This document shows positions 2,665-56,681 of a stretch of DNA of 56,681 nt, piece by piece. Every line of letters starts with the position of its first letter. Positions within the stretch are counted from its first letter, which is position 1. The DNA comes from Actinomycetes bacterium. Its GTDB lineage: Bacteria; Actinomycetota; Acidimicrobiia; Acidimicrobiales; RAAP-2. The stretch covers positions 1 to 56,681 of the forward strand of contig JAJYGN010000080.1 of NCBI GenBank assembly GCA_021790675.1. Reading direction: 5' to 3'. The notes under the pieces were generated by a model, which worked only from the letters and a program-made list of their open reading frames with translations, searched no databases and had not been told where the DNA came from. Position numbers and translations under genes: made by a program.

Positions 2665-4586
2665 CCGTCGGCCTCGCTCACGGCGAGCAGTGTGGTACCC
2701 CGGTCCACCTGCTGAGAGGGCGCGACGAACACGTCGGTGACGACGCAGTCGTGCGGCGCGGTGATCACGTGCTCCATCTTCATGGCCTCGAGCACGACCA
2801 GGGTGTCGCCGGCGCGCACGCGCTGGCCGATCTCGGCGCGCACCGCGAGAACCACGCCGGGCATCGGTGCGATGAGGCCGCCGTGGATCTCCTCGGATCC
2901 GGGCACGACGAAGCGCGGCACGACCTGGAAGGTCGCGGTGCCGCGGCGCACCTGGACGTGGAGGTGGTCGCCGTCGGCGGTGACGCGCACGTTGGCGCGT
3001 CGGCCGTTGAACTCGAGGTCGATGGCCCGATCGCTCCAGGAGCGCACGCGTGCGAGTCCCGCGTCCACGTCGAAAGCGCCGTCGCGTCGGCGCCGGTACG
3101 TCACGACGTGGTCGCCCTGGCGGCGCAGAGTCACTCTCTCGCGCGGCAGTCGCGCGTTGCGCCAGCCGCTGGGCACGAAGGCCAGCACGGGCGCGTTGGC
3201 CCGGTTCCTCTCCTCGAGCCAGAGCGCGGCCGCGGTCGTGGCGAAGGCCGTCTCGTCCTCGTCGAGGACGAGCTCGCGGGCCGGCTCGTAGCGAGCGATG
3301 AAGTCCGTTGTCGTGTCTCCGGTGAGGAATCCCTCGTGGCGAAGGGTGGCGGCGAGGAAGTCGCGATTGGTCGTCACGCCGCCCAAGTGCAGCCCCTCGA
3401 GGGCCCGCGCCAGGGTGGTGGCGGCCTCGACGCGCGTCGGGGCGACCGCGATGATCTTGGCCAGCAGGGGGTCGAAGGAGACGCTGACGCGTGAGCCGAC
3501 CTCGACACCGGACTCGACGCGCACCGGCGGATATAGCGCCGGCTCGAAGGCCGCGATCGTACCCGTCGCGGGCAGGAAGCCGTTCGCCGGGTCCTCGGCG
3601 CAGAGACGCACCTCAATGGCGTGGCCCCGGCTCACAACGTCGTCTTGGTCCATGTCGAGCGGTTCGCCCGCCGCGATTCGCAGCTGGGTGCGCACGAGGT
3701 CCACGCCAGTCACCTCCTCGGTCACCGGGTGCTCGACCTGCAGGCGGGTGTTGACCTCGAGAAAGAAGAACTCGCGGGTCTCGTCGTCGACGAGGAACTC
3801 AACGGTGCCCACCGAGTGATAGTTGATGGCTCGCGCGAGGTTGAGGGCTGCCTCACCCATGGCCGCGCGCATTGGCGCGGTCAGGGCGCTCGAGGGAGAC
3901 TCCTCGACGAGCTTCTGGTGGCGACGCTGGATCGAGCACTCGCGCTCGCCCAGGTGGATCAGGTTGCCGAAGTGATCGCCGACGATCTGGATCTCGACGT
4001 GGCGTGACGCGGCGACGTAGCGCTCGACGAACACCCGGTCGTCCCCAAAGGCGCTCGCGGCTTCGCGCTGGGCGGCCGCGAGCGCGTCGTCGAAGTCCTC
4101 TCGGCGCGTGACGACGCGCATGCCCTTGCCGCCGCCGCCAGCGGCCGCCTTGATCAAGAGGGGATAGCCCACCTGATCGGCCGCTGTGGGATCGTCGCTC
4201 GAGAGCAAGACAGCGACGCCGGCCTCGCGAGCGAGCGCCTTGGCCGCGATCTTGTCGCCCATCGCGCGAATGACGCGCGCCGGCGGCCCCACCCACGTGA
4301 GCCCAGCCTCTTCGACCATCGTGGCGAAGAGGGCGTTCTCCGAGAGGAACCCGTAGCCGGGATGGATGGCCTGCGCGCCGCTGGCGCGCGCGGCGGCGAC
4401 GATGGCGGCGCCGTCAAGGTAGGACGTCTCGAGCAGGACCGCCTCGTCGCAGTCGGCAATGAAGGGTTCGTTCGCGTCGGCCTCGACGTAGACGCCGATG
4501 ACGCGCAGCCCCATCTCGCGACCGGCACGCGCGACCCGCCGGGCGATCTCGCCGCGATTGGCGATGAGAAGCGTGTCGAAACTCAT
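2661..4586 (-). CDS. Acyl-CoA carboxylase biotin-carboxylase/BCCP (alpha) subunit
   Basis: This 641-residue alpha chain of a biotin-dependent acyl-CoA carboxylase carboxylates enzyme-bound biotin with ATP and bicarbonate. It opens with the biotin carboxylase N-terminus (SFDTLLIANRGEIARRV). The ATP-grasp glycine loop GYPLLIKAAAGGGGKGM is near residue 145, and HRLQVEHPVTEE-type active-site sequence appears as NTRLQVEHPVTEEV. The C-terminal biotinyl domain has the EAMKMEH motif with Lys603 as the biotin attachment site. The start at 4586 (ATG) overlaps the carboxyltransferase stop as ATGA; the 21-residue upstream extension lies inside that gene and was discarded. Size and pairing resemble methylcrotonyl-, geranyl- or propionyl-CoA carboxylases; the AtuA neighbour favours a geranyl/methylcrotonyl-type substrate. 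Confidence 0.93.
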   Translation of the reverse strand: MSFDTLLIANRGEIARRVARAGREMGLRVIGVYVEADANEPFIADCDEAVLLETSYLDGAAIVAAARASGAQAIHPGYGFLSENALFATMVEEAGLTWVGPPARVIRAMGDKIAAKALAREAGVAVLLSSDDPTAADQVGYPLLIKAAAGGGGKGMRVVTRREDFDDALAAAQREAASAFGDDRVFVERYVAASRHVEIQIVGDHFGNLIHLGERECSIQRRHQKLVEESPSSALTAPMRAAMGEAALNLARAINYHSVGTVEFLVDDETREFFFLEVNTRLQVEHPVTEEVTGVDLVRTQLRIAAGEPLDMDQDDVVSRGHAIEVRLCAEDPANGFLPATGTIAAFEPALYPPVRVESGVEVGSRVSVSFDPLLAKIIAVAPTRVEAATTLARALEGLHLGGVTTNRDFLAATLRHEGFLTGDTTTDFIARYEPARELVLDEDETAFATTAAALWLEERNRANAPVLAFVPSGWRNARLPRERVTLRRQGDHVVTYRRRRDGAFDVDAGLARVRSWSDRAIDLEFNGRRANVRVTADGDHLHVQVRRGTATFQVVPRFVVPGSEEIHGGLIAPMPGVVLAVRAEIGQRVRAGDTLVVLEAMKMEHVITAPHDCVVTDVFVAPSQQVDRGTTLLAVSEADG

Positions 4587-25477: not shown

Positions 25478-25553
25478 GGGGGTGTAGCTCAATTGGTAGA
25501 GCGCTACGTTCGCAATGTAGAGGCAGTGGGTTCGAATCCCATCACCTCCACCA
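25478..25553 (+). tRNA. tRNA-Ala (anticodon CGC)
   Basis: A full cloverleaf can be drawn: acceptor stem GGGGGTG with CACCTCC (one G-T pair), D arm AGCTC-AATTGGTA-GAGC, anticodon arm CTACG-TTCGCAA-TGTAG and T arm GTGGG-TTCGAAT-CCCAT. Discriminator A and an encoded CCA end follow. The anticodon CGC reads the Ala codon GCG. It begins 14 bases after the SepX-like gene and marks the border between housekeeping genes and the accessory carbohydrate region. Confidence 0.95.
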
Positions 25554-51494: not shown

Positions 51495-52315
51495 CGATCA
51501 TTCCCGCGGCGCTCGATCGGCACGTGCTGACCGGGGGACTGGACCACGCCGAGGGAATCTGCTGGGATCCCGCGCGTGGCTGCCTCTGGGCCGGCGGAGA
51601 GGCTGGGCAGGTCTATCGGATCGAACTCGACGGATCCGCCGAGGTCGTCGCCGCCATCCCCGGCGCGGCGCTACTCGGGCTGGCCCTCGACGGTGATGGC
51701 GCGATCTACGCGTGCGACCCGGCGGGACACCAGGTCTGGCGGGTGCGAGAGGACGGCGTCGTCGAAGCCTTCGGCGAGCCGATCGACTATCCCAACTACG
51801 CGGCCTTCGCGCCCGACGGCGCGCTCTACGTCTCCGATAGCGGCTCGTTCCTCGAGGCGACCGGTCGGCTCTGGCGCATCGAGCCCGACGGCACGACGAG
51901 CGACGTGACGCCGCGGCCCATTCGCTACGCGAACGGACTGTGCGTGGAGGGCGACACCCTGTGGATCGTCGAGTCGGCAGCGCCCGGGGTGAGCCGCATG
52001 GATCTGGCCAGCGGAGCGATCGAGTTCGTGGTCGCGATGGAGCGCTGCCAGCCCGACGGGCTCGCCCTCGACGCCGAGGGCGGGCTGATCATCTCGTGCT
52101 ACCAACCCAACCAGATCTTCCGCTACCACGAGGGCCGCCTCGACCTCGTCGTCGAGGACTGGAGCGGCGAGTTCATCCTCTCGCCGACCAACGTCGCTTT
52201 CTACGGCGAGGACCTCGATCGCCTCGCACTGGCTTCGCTGTGCGGCCACGACGTGGTGAGCATCCGCCCCCCCGCACCGGGTCGCCCGGTGCCGATCCCT
52301 AGGAGTGCGTCATGA
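51491..52315 (+). CDS. SMP-30/gluconolactonase-family lactonase
   Basis: This 274-residue six-bladed beta-propeller of the SMP-30/gluconolaconase family would hydrolyse a sugar lactone to the acid before the IlvD-type dehydratase. Metal-site residues appear in GGLDHAEGICWDP (Glu), RYANGLCVEGDTLWIVES (Asn) and CQPDGLALDAEGGL (Asp). Start residues are MTIIPAALDRHVLTGG from GTG 51491, overlapping the ATPase stop. No signal peptide is present, so it acts in the cytoplasm. Confidence 0.88.
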   Translation: MTIIPAALDRHVLTGGLDHAEGICWDPARGCLWAGGEAGQVYRIELDGSAEVVAAIPGAALLGLALDGDGAIYACDPAGHQVWRVREDGVVEAFGEPIDYPNYAAFAPDGALYVSDSGSFLEATGRLWRIEPDGTTSDVTPRPIRYANGLCVEGDTLWIVESAAPGVSRMDLASGAIEFVVAMERCQPDGLALDAEGGLIISCYQPNQIFRYHEGRLDLVVEDWSGEFILSPTNVAFYGEDLDRLALASLCGHDVVSIRPPAPGRPVPIPRSAS

Positions 52316-53832
52316 TCACGAGCCTCAACCCGGCCACCGGCGAGGAGCGGGTCCTCGACGTCGAGGAGACCACTCTCGACCAGGTCGCCGCGATCTGCGA
52401 GCTCGCCCACCGTGCGACGAGCGAACTCGCGACGCGATCGCTCACCTGGCGCGGGTCGATGCTGCGCGCGATGGCCGACGCGCTCGAAGAGAGCGGCGAA
52501 AGCATCATCGCCGCGGCCGACTTCGAGACCGCTCTGGGCCGTGCGCGACTCAAGGGCGAGTTGCGCCGCACGGCGTTCCAACTGCGCTTCTTCGCCGACG
52601 TCGTCGAGGACACGACGTTCCTCGCCGCGTCCATCGACCACGCCACCGACTCGCCGATGGGACCCCTTGCGGACATGCGGCGCCTGCGCGTGCCCTTAGG
52701 CGCGGTGGCGGTCTTTGGCAGCTCGAACTTCCCGCTCGCCTTCTCGGTGCCCGGTGGCGACACCGCGTCGGCCCTCGCCGCGGGATGCGCCGTCGTGGTG
52801 AAGGCCCATCCGGCGCATCCGCACACGAGCGCCCTGTGCGCGGCGGCCCTGCGCGAGGGCGCGCGGCGCGTCGGCGCCCCCGAGGGCACCCTCGAGGTCG
52901 TCTACGGCTTCGCGGCCGGCACGGCGCTCGTCACCGACGCGAACATCGCGGCGGTTGGCTTCACCGGTTCACTCTTCGCCGGACAGGCGCTCTGGCGACT
53001 CGCCAACGAGCGTCCCGTGCCGATCCCCTTCTACGGTGAGCTCGGCTCGGCCAACCCGCTAGTCGTGACGCCGAGCGCGGCGCGCGTTCGAGCGCGCGAG
53101 ATCGGTGCGGGCGCCGCGGGCTCGATGACCCTCGGGGTCGGGCAGTTCTGCACCAAGCCTGGACTGCTGTTCGTGCCGGAAGGTTCCGACGGCGACGCGC
53201 TGGTCAACGCCCTCGTCGAGAGCCTGGTGGCGACCTCGACCTTCACGATGCTCACCGGTGGCATCGCCGCGCACTTTCGCGAGAGCGTCGCAGCGATCGC
53301 CGCCCACGAGGACGTCGTCGCCCTCGTCGCGCCGGCGCCCGAGGCGGGCACCACGGTGCGCGCCCAGCTCTTTGGCGTCGACGCGCGCACCTTCGCGAGC
53401 GAGGCCGCGCGCGATCTGCGCGAGGAGTGCTTCGGGCCCCTCGCCCTCGTCGTGCGCTACGAGTCGAGCGACGACCTCTTCGCCGCGCTGCGCGCGGCGA
53501 GCGCGTCGCTCACCCTGAGTGTCTTCGCCGAGGCCGAGGATCCCGACGCCGCGGGCCTCGTCGACTTCGCCGCGACGCGCGCGGGACGCGTGATCGTGAA
53601 CGGCTATCCCACCGGGGTCGGGGTGAGCTGGTCGATGCACCATGGTGGGCCGTGGCCGGCCACGACCGCGCCGCTCGCCACCTCCGTCGGCGCCGCCGGC
53701 ATCGAGCGCTGGCTGCGCGCGCTAACGTATCAGTCGGTGCCCGAGGCCTTGTTGCCCGCACCTCTCAGGGATGAGAACCCGTGGGGCGTCGCGCGTCGCG
53801 TCGACGGAGTCCTGGTCGCGAGGCCCGTCTAG
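52312..53832 (+). CDS. 2,5-dioxovalerate (ketoglutarate semialdehyde)-type aldehyde dehydrogenase
   Basis: This 506-residue NAD(P)-dependent aldehyde dehydrogenase has the FGSSNFPLAFSVPGGDTASALAAGCAVVVKAHPAHP cofactor region, a Glu in FYGELGSANPLV and the catalytic Cys in GVGQFCTKPGLLFVP. The GSSNFPLAFS and SANP segments with the short FCTKPG loop are characteristic of 2-ketoglutarate semialdehyde dehydrogenases of pentose and hydroxyproline oxidation. Product would be 2-oxoglutarate. A TAGGAG site precedes ATG 52312, which overlaps the lactonase stop. It is the last gene of the run. Confidence 0.88.
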   Translation: MITSLNPATGEERVLDVEETTLDQVAAICELAHRATSELATRSLTWRGSMLRAMADALEESGESIIAAADFETALGRARLKGELRRTAFQLRFFADVVEDTTFLAASIDHATDSPMGPLADMRRLRVPLGAVAVFGSSNFPLAFSVPGGDTASALAAGCAVVVKAHPAHPHTSALCAAALREGARRVGAPEGTLEVVYGFAAGTALVTDANIAAVGFTGSLFAGQALWRLANERPVPIPFYGELGSANPLVVTPSAARVRAREIGAGAAGSMTLGVGQFCTKPGLLFVPEGSDGDALVNALVESLVATSTFTMLTGGIAAHFRESVAAIAAHEDVVALVAPAPEAGTTVRAQLFGVDARTFASEAARDLREECFGPLALVVRYESSDDLFAALRAASASLTLSVFAEAEDPDAAGLVDFAATRAGRVIVNGYPTGVGVSWSMHHGGPWPATTAPLATSVGAAGIERWLRALTYQSVPEALLPAPLRDENPWGVARRVDGVLVARPV

Positions 53833-54346
53833 CCCATTGCTGTGCAAAAGGTGGGCCTAACTAGTTGTTATCTCCGCCTAAAGCAAGTAATTCGGTGGAA
53901 AAGGCCGAAACTTCTGGGCAAAAGTCTGTGATTTGACGATTTCGGTTTGCGCCCGCCATCGTGCTCTGGCACAGTGATCCTCGTAGTTCACGTAGTACCG
54001 GTCGACGATCGGCGGAACCGAAAGGGGAAGCCGACGGAGAGGTGAGGGACCTCGCAAGAGGGACGGAGCCTCCACCGGGCAGCGAAGTTCGGTTCGCTGT
54101 TCGCACGACGAATGACGTGAAGTACCCGCCGTCAAACGGTGGCCTGTCCGACACGGGCCAGCGGGCGACGTGCCTTCGGGAACCCCGAGGGGCTGGGGAG
54201 TTTCGGCTCACTGGTCACTCGGGGTTTTCGGCGTCCGGGGCCGTATTTGCCGGAGCGTTCAAGGGTTACCTTCGGCTGCACGGACGACGACCGTGTCGAG
54301 TGTTCGAAATCGCGATGGTCACGTCGTGCGGTTCGCACGCGGGTAG
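53833..54346. other. 514-base gene-free region
   Basis: No convincing protein gene occurs between the aldehyde dehydrogenase and the SRAP gene. The first 145 bases are comparatively AT-rich and plain; they contain AACTAGTT and no clear terminator. From about 53978 the plus strand is dense with hairpins (next entry). CGTGCG-GTT-CGCACG at 54325-54339 lies eight bases beyond the SRAP stop and could end that transcript on the minus strand, though no T-run follows. Frames through the region have no recognisable motif. Confidence 0.7.
53978..54346 (+). ncRNA. Candidate structured RNA of unknown class
   Basis: The plus strand folds into a string of hairpins with stable tetraloops. CCGGT-CGACG-ATCGG is at 53998. 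CCGAAAGG at 54018 has a GAAA loop. GGTGAGG (54041) pairs with CCTCCACC (54069), enclosing CCTC-GCAA-GAGG (54050-54061). CAGCGAA-GTTCGG-TTCGCTG is at 54080-54099, CCGCCGT-CAA-ACGGTGG at 54126-54142, a GGCC stem at 54141-54159, and CCTTCGGG-AAC-CCCGAGGG at 54173-54191. Loop types (GNRA, UUCG) point to the plus strand as the RNA. The class is not identified: it lacks RNase P, tmRNA, SRP and group II domain V signatures. HEARO/omega-RNA-like is one possibility, but no IscB/IsrB gene is near. Confidence 0.45.
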
Positions 54347-55033
54347 TTAGAACAGCTCGGCGGGTCCCGTCGGCTCGATGAGTTGGGGCCCGTCGTTGCG
54401 CACCGAGCCCACCGCCGCACTGACGGGGTGGTGCACGAGAGTGCCGGTCGGCGCCGGGCGCAGCAGGAGCGCGCGATCGGCGTTGTCGACGTCGAGCCAC
54501 TCGTCGACGTCGTGGTGCGCGAGCACGACCGGCATGCGGTCGTGCAGCTCGTCCATGTCGGAGTTGGGCGTGGTCGTGATGACCGTGCAGGTGGCGAGCA
54601 CCGCCTCGTTCGCCGGATCGCGCCAGTGCTCGAAGAGCCCCGCGAGCAGGACCGGCTCGTCGTTACTGCGGTGGAAGTAGTGGGCGGCCTTGGCGCGTCC
54701 GGGGCGGTGGTCCCACTCGTAGAAGCCGTCGACGGGGATCACGCAGGGTCGCTTGGCGAAGGCGCTGCGAAACGAGGGCTTCTCGGCGACGGTCTCGGCG
54801 CGCGCGTTAAAGAGTCGGTTCGCGATGGAGGGGTCCTTGGCCCAACTGGGCACGAGGCCCCAGCGGTAGCGCTCGAGGAGTCGGCCCGCGTCGGACTCGT
54901 GGGCGGCGAGCAGGTGGCGCAGGGGGCCGATGTTCCAGCTGGGCTCGATCGTCTCGAGCCCCGCCGCGAGGCTCGCCTCGAGCAGGCGCGCGAGGCGGGT
55001 CGGGGGAGTGAAGAGGGCGATGCGTCCGCACAC
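54347..55033 (-). CDS. yedK: SRAP-domain abasic-site processing protein (YedK/HMCES)
   Basis: This 228-residue SOS response-associated peptidase-fold protein forms a covalent thiazolidine link with abasic sites in single-stranded DNA and so shields them. The reactive Cys2 follows the initiator (MCGRIALFTPP), exposed once Met is removed. WNIGP, WGLVPSWAKD, NARAETVAEKPSFRSAF, the Glu of PVDGFYEW and the His of LHDRMPVVL complete the active site. GTG 55033 has an AAGGAG site and places Cys at position 2; an upstream extension would bury it. It is divergent from imuA' with the SOS box in the 71-base gap. Confidence 0.94.
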   Translation of the reverse strand: MCGRIALFTPPTRLARLLEASLAAGLETIEPSWNIGPLRHLLAAHESDAGRLLERYRWGLVPSWAKDPSIANRLFNARAETVAEKPSFRSAFAKRPCVIPVDGFYEWDHRPGRAKAAHYFHRSNDEPVLLAGLFEHWRDPANEAVLATCTVITTTPNSDMDELHDRMPVVLAHHDVDEWLDVDNADRALLLRPAPTGTLVHHPVSAAVGSVRNDGPQLIEPTGPAELF

Positions 55034-55097
55034 GGGATCTCCTTTTTCCCTGACGATAGGGCCCACTGGCGGACGTCACGGCGACTGGTTACTCTTA

Positions 55098-55111
55098 CGA
55101 ACATATGTTCG
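55098..55111. promoter_or_regulatory. LexA/SOS box
   Basis: CGAACATATGTTCG is a perfect 14-base palindrome and matches the actinobacterial LexA operator (CGAAC-N4-GTTCG). It lies between the divergent yedK and imuA' genes and contains the imuA' ATG (55105-55107). It is expected to repress imuA'-imuB until DNA damage and may also act on yedK, whose start is 64 bases away. Confidence 0.92.
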
Positions 55112-55761
55112 CTTTTTCCCCTCCACGACCCCCGTTGCCGGCCGATCTCCTGGCTAAGGTGCGCCCTGTCTCCCTCGCCGGCTCGCGCCGCCTGCCCCTG
55201 GACGAGCCCTGGTCCGGCCTCGTTCCCGGAGCCAGCCTGCGCCGCGGTTCGCTGGTCGTCGTCGAGGCGGCACCGGGCCTGGGCGGGCTCAGCCTCGCGC
55301 TCAGCCTGCTCACCGGCGCCTCGCGCGCGGGGCACTGGGCGGCCGTGGTCGGCGTGGACGACCCCGGGGTGATGGCTATGGCCGAGCTCGGCGTGGACCT
55401 GCGCCGCGTGCTCTTCGTCCCGCGTCCGCGCGGCGCCTGGGCCGAGTCCGCGGCTGATCTCCTCGACGGGGTGGACCTGTTGGTGGTGCGCCCGCCGGGG
55501 CGCGCCGCTTCGTCTTCGGCGCGGCGCCTGGTGGATCGCGTGCGCGAGTCCGGCGTCGTGCTCGTCGTGCTCGCCGAGACCCGCGCGGCGTGGCCGACGC
55601 CGGCCGACCTCTCCTTTACGATCACCCGGGCGCGCTGGGAGGCGTCGTCGCGCCTCGACGCGCGCTACCTGAACGTGCGCGTGGGCGGTCGTGGCGAGGC
55701 GAGCCGCGTCGGTGAGCACGTGATCGTCCTACCCGGCCAGCGCGGTCGCGCGGAGAGCTAG
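55105..55761 (+). CDS. imuA': ImuA'-type RecA-fold mutasome accessory protein
   Basis: This 218-residue protein of the ImuA' group helps recruit the DnaE2 error-prone polymerase in the actinobacterial SOS mutasome. The core reads GASLRRGSLVVVEAAPGLGGLSLALSLLTGAS (about residues 42-73), a RecA-like fold with a degenerate P-loop, then AAVVGVDDPGVMAMAELGVDLRRVLFV and DGVDLLVVRPP. The ATG at 55105 lies within the SOS box and has no ribosome-binding site, so the message may be leaderless. A GTG at codon 19 is a later alternative. The stop overlaps the imuB GTG. Confidence 0.82.
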   Translation: MFAFSPPRPPLPADLLAKVRPVSLAGSRRLPLDEPWSGLVPGASLRRGSLVVVEAAPGLGGLSLALSLLTGASRAGHWAAVVGVDDPGVMAMAELGVDLRRVLFVPRPRGAWAESAADLLDGVDLLVVRPPGRAASSSARRLVDRVRESGVVLVVLAETRAAWPTPADLSFTITRARWEASSRLDARYLNVRVGGRGEASRVGEHVIVLPGQRGRAES

Positions 55762-56681
55762 TGGAGCGGCTCCTCGCGGTCTGGGTCGAGTCGCTCGCCG
55801 TCGAGTCACCTGATGGATCGACGTGGCGCGACTTCGCGGCGCTCTTCGACGCGCTCAGCGTGCTCTCGCCCTTTACCGAGGCGGTGCGGCTGGGGCTGTG
55901 CGTGATCCCGGTGCGCGGGCCGAGCCGCTTCTTCGGCGGCGAGGGCGCCGTGCTCGAGGCGGTGGCCAGCACGGTGCGCGACGTGACCGGCCGCGAGGCC
56001 GCTCTCGGCGTGGCCGACGGGCTCTTCCTCGCCGAGCTCGCCGCGAAGTCGCACCGGGTGGTGCCCGTGGGACAGAGCGAGGCCTTCCGCCGCGCCCAGC
56101 GCCTCGACGTGCTCGGGCGCGCCGACCTCGCCGCGACGTGCGCGCGCCTCGGGATCCGCAGCGTCGGGGCCTTCGCTGACCTCGCCCCGGCGAGGGTCGC
56201 CGAACGCTTCAGCGCGCCGGTGGTGGCCCTGCACCGGGTGGCGCGCGGCGAGGTCGCCGAGCTCGCCGGCCAACGCGACGCGCGCATCCACGAGCGCCTC
56301 GCGGCCGTGCGCGGGACGACGCTCACCCGTTCCGAACAAGGGGGATTCTTCGGTGAGAACGCGGCCGGCGACGAGCGGGCTGCGGCTGCCGCGCACCGGG
56401 TGCGCCGGCGCCTCGGGGCCGAGGGCGTCGTGGTCGCGGCCCTGCGCGCGGGCCGCGTCCCCGAGGACCGCGCGGTGCTCGTGCCCTGGGGGGCGCCGGC
56501 CGAGGCCGAGCGCGACGACGCGCCCTGGCCGGGACAGCTGCGCGCGCCGAGTCCCGCGACCACCCTCGCGCGCCCGGTGCCGGTCGAGCTGCGCGACGCC
56601 AACGGGGCGCCGCTGCGCGTGGCGCCGCGCGGGGGGCTGACCGGCGAGCCGGCGACGTTGTGGTTCTCGCACGCGATTCGC
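55761..56681 (+). CDS. imuB: ImuB-type Y-family polymerase homologue, 5' part
   Basis: The frame opens at GTG 55761, sharing one base with the imuA' stop, and remains open to the end of the window (307 residues seen). It begins VERLLAVWVESLAVESPDG. FDALSVLSPFTEAVRLGLCVIPVRGPSRFFGGE is the ImuB form of the Y-family palm, followed by LGVADGLFLAELAAKS, LGIRSVGAFADLAP (helix-hairpin-helix region) and a little-finger-like part. The Asp/Glu catalytic triad of true Y-polymerases is absent, as known for ImuB, which acts as a beta-clamp-binding hub for DnaE2. The C-terminal clamp motif and dnaE2 lie beyond the window. Confidence 0.85.
   Translation, partial: MERLLAVWVESLAVESPDGSTWRDFAALFDALSVLSPFTEAVRLGLCVIPVRGPSRFFGGEGAVLEAVASTVRDVTGREAALGVADGLFLAELAAKSHRVVPVGQSEAFRRAQRLDVLGRADLAATCARLGIRSVGAFADLAPARVAERFSAPVVALHRVARGEVAELAGQRDARIHERLAAVRGTTLTRSEQGGFFGENAAGDERAAAAAHRVRRRLGAEGVVVAALRAGRVPEDRAVLVPWGAPAEAERDDAPWPGQLRAPSPATTLARPVPVELRDANGAPLRVAPRGGLTGEPATLWFSHAIR

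Follow-up and report, generated by a model that had tools for sequence, protein, structure and literature searches.

A candidate gene for a structured non-coding RNA downstream of DnaA-box-like sites in Acidimicrobiales

In the gap between two protein genes of an acidimicrobial genome, we found what is almost certainly, judged by sequence comparison, a plus-strand gene for a structured non-coding RNA of ~250 nt. The whole stretch of DNA that we analysed (hereafter, the window) comprises 56,681 nucleotides and is one contig of a host draft genome of 2.04 Mb in 117 contigs. Comparison with related genomes points to a covarying fold, to conservation with no conserved reading frame, to a stand-alone layout, and to an upstream box array that is almost private to the RNA gene. 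Our preferred explanation, to which we would give an even chance of being right, is that the gene has its own promoter, that three DnaA-box-like sites likely control it, and that the structured RNA of ~250 nt would act in trans. Taken separately, control of the RNA gene by DnaA is a closely balanced call, and a replication-linked role of the RNA in trans ranges from evenly balanced down to distinctly less probable.

The gap is gene-free and spans 514 bases, from the end of an aldehyde dehydrogenase gene (52312-53832, plus strand, PF00171) to a SRAP gene (54347-55066, minus strand, PF02586), which confirms what an earlier sequence-only reading of the window had noticed. That reading placed an array of tetraloop hairpins at 53978..54346. 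The RNA (53982-54230) does lie inside this interval; the last ~115 bases fall outside the RNA, since it ends in a terminator-like hairpin, and a conserved upstream region (53841-53975) lies mostly outside the interval. The hairpins singled out at that time, CCTC-GCAA-GAGG (54050-54061), one with a GAAA loop (54020-54023) and CAGCGAA-GTTCGG-TTCGCTG, are all present. The GCAA hairpin was said to be nested in a longer stem, and here the inner stem stands whilst the outer one has a different partner: by covariation, 54037-54042 pairs with 54069-54073 and the next column. The elements of the RNA are as follows.

53982..54230, plus strand: structured non-coding RNA of ~250 nt, with predicted start and end; 54/61 genus genomes, 10 covarying helices, no Rfam match
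53987-53993 with 54115-54121, plus strand: P2, a long-range helix closing the 5′ multibranched domain; top covarying pair 53993-54115, 98.7% of cells paired
54001-54004 with 54106-54109, plus strand: P3; 86.8% of cells paired, two-sided changes in 3/4 pairs
54009..54034, plus strand: P4 hairpin with a GAAA tetraloop; two-sided changes in 5/5 outer pairs, 82.3% of cells paired
54037..54073, plus strand: P5 hairpin with inner CCTC-GCAA-GAGG; two-sided changes in 6/6 outer pairs, 85.4% of cells paired
54078..54101, plus strand: P6 hairpin with the conserved loop GTTCGG; two-sided changes in 7/8 pairs
54128-54134 with 54166-54173, plus strand: P7, enclosing P8; 94.6% of cells paired
54140..54160, plus strand: P8 hairpin with the near-invariant apex UGU-CCGAC-ACG; 96.7% of cells paired
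54181..54230, plus strand: P9 terminal hairpin; its internal-loop bases are invariant, and a short T-rich tract follows; 99.6% of cells paired

With a computed energy of -182 kcal/mol, the plus-strand fold of 53960-54350 outperforms each of 100 dinucleotide shuffles (z -2.77), and the minus strand of the same interval is unremarkable (z -0.40; 37/100 shuffles as good). The sequence-only reading had taken the plus strand as the transcript from its types of tetraloop. The RNA-aware alignment proposed at that time as a check was made with 57 copies, 56 of them distinct. The structure that we counted was joined by hand from RNAalifold helices and from long-range helices identified by APC-corrected covariation, and comprises 69 pairs in 10 helices. 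Standard pairs occupy 94.7% of cells (shuffled mean 86.0), two-sided changes occur in 42/69 pairs (26.3 in shuffles), 376 cells have changes on both sides (108.5 in shuffles), and 0/500 shuffles were as good on any of five measures, a control that is inflated by the relatedness of the sequences. When partners were slid by 1-3 columns, pairing dropped to 38-46% (maximum 45.8%); this control keeps the relatedness but favours a structure drawn from the same sequences. Given compensatory change in 69 pairs and 10 helices across 57 aligned copies, we consider the fold to be well beyond chance.

In the resulting layout, a 5′ multibranched domain closed by P2 holds P3-P6, and is followed by P7, which encloses P8, and then by P9. 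The last of these is likely an intrinsic terminator, to judge by its bases; the 15 nt after CTCGGGG contain on average 6.9 T (range 4-9) in the 57 copies. A further helix, P1, in which GGCA (53968-53971) would pair with UGCC, was dropped, as P7 makes better use of that partner and GGCA overlaps the predicted -10 element.

A search of the whole window with Rfam at gathering scores returned only a tRNA at 25478-25550, and the region 53800-54400 gave no match at E<=10. The earlier statement that the locus holds no recognisable housekeeping RNA therefore stands, and RNase P and tmRNA were found elsewhere in the genome (C16:23654-24006 and C52:183-531, respectively), which rules out both as its identity. 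The same is true of the raiA RNA (RF03072), with its own copy at C41:18881-19121. As an aside, of 37 genus genomes searched, 34 have a raiA (ModT) RNA match, which exceeds the family cut-off in 32. The 6S RNA model (RF00013) gave no match at the locus or in 41 genomes, which is not informative since the model was also silent in an actinobacterial control genome; we rejected 6S RNA on the fold, which consists of 10 covariation-supported helices in a multibranched arrangement and not of a single long hairpin with a central bubble. A riboswitch leader is not supported. A riboregulator, which the sequence-only reading had also offered, is possible. The RNA was not described among the matches listed in the literature searched, so that its fold, lineage and box-linked layout are new as far as Rfam and that literature go; stand-alone structured RNAs as such are a known kind.

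BLASTN with 53850-54360 against 100 genomes of the order matched 54/61 genomes of the genus, including the source genome, and 0/39 genomes of other genera. One of the seven genus genomes that gave no BLASTN match (G039) was recovered by a covariance model. A core pattern of the RNA was found in 78 stretches of named records, four of which contain two matches each. The titles of 73/78 read Acidimicrobiaceae, Acidimicrobiales, Actinomycetes, Actinobacteria or Actinomycetota; we take the other five (three Acidobacteria/Acidobacteriota, one Burkholderiales and one Saccharibacteria) to be mislabelled bins. Many carriers have isolate names like bog, palsa and fen, which suggest a peat habitat. Two blocks are conserved, one at about 53965-54232 and a separate one at 53841-53935, and conservation ends after about 54235. 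Covariation and distribution together support a lineage-specific plus-strand RNA, another of the options first put forward from the letters alone.

The separate upstream block and the bases that follow it contain the elements below.

53841..53849, plus strand: B1, DnaA-box-like, TGTGCAAAA; consensus TGTGgaAAA, reverse complement of TTTTCCACA, with TGT and the final AA each in 52/53 copies
53862..53870, plus strand: weaker element between B1 and B2, consensus TGGTTGATA; G53864 and T53865 kept in 48/53 copies
53894..53902, plus strand: B2, DnaA-box-like, GGTGGAAAA; consensus GGTGGATAA, first base G
53915..53923, plus strand: B3, DnaA-box-like, TGGGCAAAA; the least canonical, 7 of 9, consensus TGGGcAAAA
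53930..53934, plus strand: conserved GATTT; each base in 43-49 of 53 copies
53947..53952, plus strand: predicted -35, TTGCGC; 19/53 copies have TTG 16-18 bp upstream of the -10
53970..53975, plus strand: predicted -10, CACAGT (CAnnGT); A at position 2 in 53/53 copies, T at position 6 in 52/53

B1, B2 and B3 share one orientation and resemble what we take to be the DnaA-box consensus, TGTGGATAA in the direction of the array; in the window, B1 and B2 reach 8/9 and B3 reaches 7/9. The element between B1 and B2 may possibly be a degenerate fourth box. Spacing is regular in terms of the DNA helix: B1 and B2 are 53 bp apart in 46/53 copies (about five turns), and B2 and B3 are 21 bp (38/53) or 22 bp (15/53) apart (about two turns). 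From B3 to the -10 the distance is 55 bp in 40/53 copies and 65-66 bp in 5/53, where an insertion adds 10-11 bp, or about one turn.

To count boxes, we scored 9-mers that match TGTGGA[TCA]AA at >=8/9 in 56 upstream regions. A fixed consensus was used because an unsupervised motif search of oriC returned overlapping broad motifs, including TGTGGATAAC and TTGTGGATAA, and no clean single motif. The 56 regions hold 93 forward and 4 reverse boxes, against a forward mean of 6.3 and a maximum of 14 in 200 shuffles, counts that overstate significance since the sequences are related and not independent (thinning hardly reduced them, from 59 to 56) and the limits of six divergent upstream regions were set by eye. 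A cluster of DnaA-box-like sequences, by which a DnaA-responsive locus may be recognised, is thus present here. The upstream regions of 14 controls (five RNase P, five raiA and four tmRNA genes) contain 1 box at >=8/9. At this threshold the RNA has 11.9 boxes per kb on the forward strand, and oriC has 8.4 per kb with both strands counted. At >=7/9 there are 202 forward and 33 reverse matches (shuffles 49.0 and 17.5), and the density on both strands is about 30 per kb at the RNA versus 37.0 at oriC, which is then the denser. In a 550 kb sample (540 kb of G382 and 9.5 kb of G307) we counted 44 sites at 8/9, and nowhere did three of them fall inside 150 bp.

The pattern formed by B2 and B3 is present at 63 places in 61/99 genus genomes (reversed control, 1/99); the exact pattern is missing from the other 38, at least one of which (G382) has variant boxes at the RNA. 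Where the place could be checked, i.e., in genomes with the RNA mapped, 47/48 lie at the RNA, the exception being G037:C91, and 15 further places are in genomes without a mapped RNA. Given these 47 places, the arrangement is almost private to the RNA. Since B2 and B3 are non-canonical, a protein other than DnaA could bind them. With regard to the origin itself, the gap after dnaA (L100-L107, L190-L195), likely the oriC of the genus, contains CTACTACTA in 14/14 genomes inspected; in 10/14, by eye, an ATCCACA box directly precedes it. We assume that CTACTACTA is likely what has been called a DnaA-trio unwinding element.

The conserved CAnnGT and TTG bases are predicted, from their sequence and spacing, to form the promoter of the RNA, and the same bases may also have a structural role. 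TTG stands at the -35 distance in 19/53 copies versus a mean of 4.1 and a maximum of 11 in 500 shuffles; the predicted -10 is without its usual first T. An RNA start near 53982 follows from reading CAnnGT and TTG as -10 and -35. The GTGA at 53974, which the sequence-only reading had used as one hint of a HEARO/omega-RNA-like element, falls between the predicted -10 and the start, inside the predicted promoter and not at an end of the RNA.

Two genes follow the RNA in the window.

54347..55066, minus strand: SRAP gene, convergent with the RNA; PF02586, E 2.7e-65
55105..55761, plus strand: ImuA′ gene; NF058630, 109.4 bits (cut-off 65)

Of the 52 loci with the RNA mapped, 44 have SRAP downstream on the opposite strand, and 39 have ImuA′ beyond SRAP. 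Genes for an NTP transferase, KAS III and a threonine aldolase take this place in 5/52, and in 3/52 neither gene set is found in the stretch examined. The locus is therefore syntenic across most of the genus, and different lineages have different genes downstream. SRAP, NTP transferase, KAS III and PHP/polymerase domains were assigned by Pfam, ImuA′ by an NCBIfam match that exceeds its cut-off, and the threonine aldolase by eye. For the ImuB-like gene no family scored above cut-off, and its name comes from position alone; that of the DnaE2-like polymerase comes from an NCBIfam match of a fragment (636.8 bits) that is under the model's cut-off of 939. Together, SRAP, ImuA′, the ImuB-like gene and the DnaE2-like polymerase form a conserved mutasome neighbourhood adjoining the RNA in most of the genus (window 54347-56681 and other loci). 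Among the representatives profiled, the identified neighbours (ALDH, SRAP, ImuA′ and DnaE2-like polymerase, or NTP transferase, KAS III and cation efflux) include no nuclease.

In four genomes (G025, G040, G041 and G052) the RNA is duplicated in tandem together with its upstream boxes, ~500 bp apart. These copies (L068, L069, L070, L050) are nearly identical in 3/4, and G046 has an additional partial match to the RNA at a contig start. The varied downstream genes and the tandem copies with boxes of their own make it unlikely that the RNA serves one fixed neighbour as leader or antisense. Together with the terminator-like hairpin, these properties argue for a stand-alone gene.

Of 26 genomes searched, two have dnaA and the RNA on one contig: G382, an assembly of 1.96 Mb in three contigs, where they are 480 kb apart, and G039, of about 1.7 Mb, where they are 376 kb apart; a pair of genomes is too few for a rule. 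In these, the RNA locus is not at oriC. The GC skew of sampled stretches of G382 was too noisy for placing the origin or terminus.

The box array could also be read as the main object of selection, in which case the locus would be mainly DNA, a DnaA-titrating or -recharging site like datA or DARS of E. coli, and transcription of the RNA would only tune box occupancy. A cluster about as dense as that at oriC, yet away from it in G382 and G039, speaks for this; however, a DNA site has no need of purifying selection on an RNA fold of ~250 nt, and the distances to dnaA come from two genomes only, and we regard this explanation as rather improbable. We would put at the same level a growth-phase RNA that binds RNA polymerase or ribosomes, in the manner of 6S/Ms1 or raiA/ModT, with a regulator other than DnaA acting on the boxes. 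Size, a predicted promoter and terminator of its own, and wide presence in the genus all agree with such an RNA, and no 6S match was obtained in 41 genomes, which leaves the role open. On the other hand, the RNA folds into several branches and not into a single long hairpin with a bubble at its centre, a separate raiA RNA is present, and the boxes are similar to those at oriC in this genus. Less probable again is a local regulator, working through convergent transcription or antisense read-through, of the convergent SOS-mutagenesis genes (SRAP, ImuA′, the ImuB-like gene and the DnaE2-like polymerase). The frequent position of SRAP and ImuA′ downstream (44/52 and 39/52 loci) would fit, and P9 is near-symmetric and could end both transcripts, but five loci adjoin NTP transferase, KAS III and threonine aldolase genes instead, three have none of these genes in the stretch examined, and in the window the RNA and SRAP do not overlap.

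The sequence-only reading had offered an orphan HEARO/omega RNA as one hypothesis, and a guide RNA of some other transposon-type nuclease would be of the same sort. HEARO/omega RNAs are multi-stem RNAs with tetraloops, and the multi-stem layout and GNRA loops found here are indeed similar. In contrast to those RNAs, the locus gave no profile match in Rfam (53800-54400, E<=10), has no nuclease among its identified neighbours, and bears no sign of mobility: it is mostly syntenic, its extra copies are tandem and not scattered, and no match was obtained in phages and plasmids with blastn or in viral contigs with one exact core pattern. We regard this idea as very improbable. The least credible explanation of all is that the region is a decayed protein gene, a possibility that the sequence-only reading had set against its own proposal, or the leader of an operon that follows. 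ORFs called mechanically, 116-129 aa long, do overlap the RNA, but no reading frame is open in all 53 distinct copies (the best in 22/53), copy lengths are not constant modulo 3, RNA covariation is strong, and the next gene is on the opposite strand.

Under the preferred explanation, that of an RNA gene controlled by DnaA, the RNA would be transcribed from its own predicted promoter and DnaA would bind B1-B3 upstream. Bound in helical phase with the promoter, DnaA would raise or lower transcription, so that the level of the RNA would follow the replication cycle. The RNA might then act in trans, with the near-invariant P8 loop (CCGAC) and the internal loop of P9 offered to a protein or RNA partner. 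If DnaA binding to the array sets RNA output in this way, the RNA would report the replication state. A further and more doubtful step, which we put forward tentatively, is that the locus founds a new RNA family switched by DnaA, as a cell-cycle RNA gene partway along a chromosome arm. Were this true, its output would track both DnaA activity and duplication of the locus by the fork, and the replication state of these actinobacteria would be readable by a folded RNA. Large structured bacterial RNAs kept genus-wide are often important, and few non-coding RNAs are tied to the replication initiator; a phased, oriC-like box array almost only beside an RNA offers a direct and testable link between replication and RNA in a poorly studied bacterial order.

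In design, the precedent that comes nearest is CcnA of Caulobacter crescentus, and we do not claim membership. According to excerpts of its description, CcnA is 182 nt long and is encoded within the origin; CtrA presumably activates it, three weak DnaA boxes lie within the gene, and CcnA modulates CtrA and GcrA (PMC8959179). Both loci combine a non-coding RNA gene with DnaA boxes (box-like here), and a cell-cycle role in trans is what we propose here. Our locus departs from CcnA as excerpted in having its box-like sites upstream, in its distance of ~0.4-0.5 Mb from dnaA (two genomes) and in its covarying, multi-domain fold. The datA, DARS1 and DARS2 loci of E. coli modulate DnaA from non-coding positions on the chromosome outside oriC and are described, in the portions of the source consulted, as DNA sequences (PMC5010248). 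Our locus is likewise non-coding, away from oriC and, by prediction, DnaA-linked, again with no claim of membership; it differs in its structured RNA product, none being mentioned for datA/DARS in those portions of PMC5010248.

The raiA/ModT RNA (RF03072) is a stand-alone, highly structured RNA of 215-260 nt in C. difficile with its own promoter, and occurs in Bacillota and Actinomycetota, as stated in excerpts of PMC11706538. The RNA described here is similarly stand-alone, of like size and highly structured, with its own promoter (predicted here), but belongs to a different family, as the same genome has a separate raiA RNA. Ms1 of Actinobacteria is a stand-alone RNA of about 200-300 nt with a central bubble and HAD-hydrolase synteny, again as given in excerpts (PMC9130861). 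Ours is also a stand-alone actinobacterial RNA of this size, whereas neither the central bubble nor the HAD-hydrolase synteny reported in those excerpts is the rule here; a HAD-like gene, named by reading the sequence, stands at 3 loci (L063, L064, L074).

For more divergent relatives, we searched with two covariance models of the 3′ domain, R1 (39 sequences) in 397 genomes of the order and R2 (24 hand-picked sequences) in 396 of the phylum; as only 9-10 candidates per genome were scored, misses by the models are not evidence of absence. R1 matched 17/397 genomes, comprising 14/14 of the genus sample, 2/4 genomes from other genera of the family, and G307 from another family. R2 matched 10/396, including G767 and G627, whose matches (34.6 and 37.5 bits) look like chance or other hairpins and were excluded from the relatives. 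We also excluded a pattern match in G301, located in what reads as coding sequence. The P8 apex is present in 8/9 divergent copies, with changes beside the loop in L224 and L225 and with no apex in L223, and P9 is kept in 9/9.

Upstream of these copies, L163, L164 and L226 have boxes that read TGTGGATTA, TGTGGACAA or TGTGGAAAG. L223, from the other family, has TGTGCAC repeats and one GGGGACAA box at 8/9. In L131 the box matches reach only 7/9, L136 resembles L164 by eye, and the upstream region of L172 is cut by the end of the stretch. L224 and L225 have no clear boxes in the upstream stretch looked at. Boxes and RNA have thus stayed together in several lineages, including one from another family, and not demonstrably in all. 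Three of the relatives (L163, L131 and L172) have a cation-efflux (CDF) transporter gene (PF01545) adjoining the RNA, identified by profile for L163 and L172 and by eye for L131.

In L131 (about 4230-4370) and in L224/L225 (upstream of 1501), the 5′ part consists of repeated units like GNRA hairpins (GCCGCAAGGCGGAACC; GGAGGAACTGGGGCAACCCGGGGAGGCC), and from these repeated 5′ units the RNA may have grown by duplication of modules. The stretch from the distant actinobacterium G627 (L252, 1501-1603) has a P9-like internal-loop hairpin just after a promoter-like TATGAT, and this hairpin is possibly the 5′ end of another RNA. In G767, from another family of the class, the minus strand of L253 (1441-1995) is a GCAA-rich, terminator-ended intergenic stretch that resembles the RNA in style.
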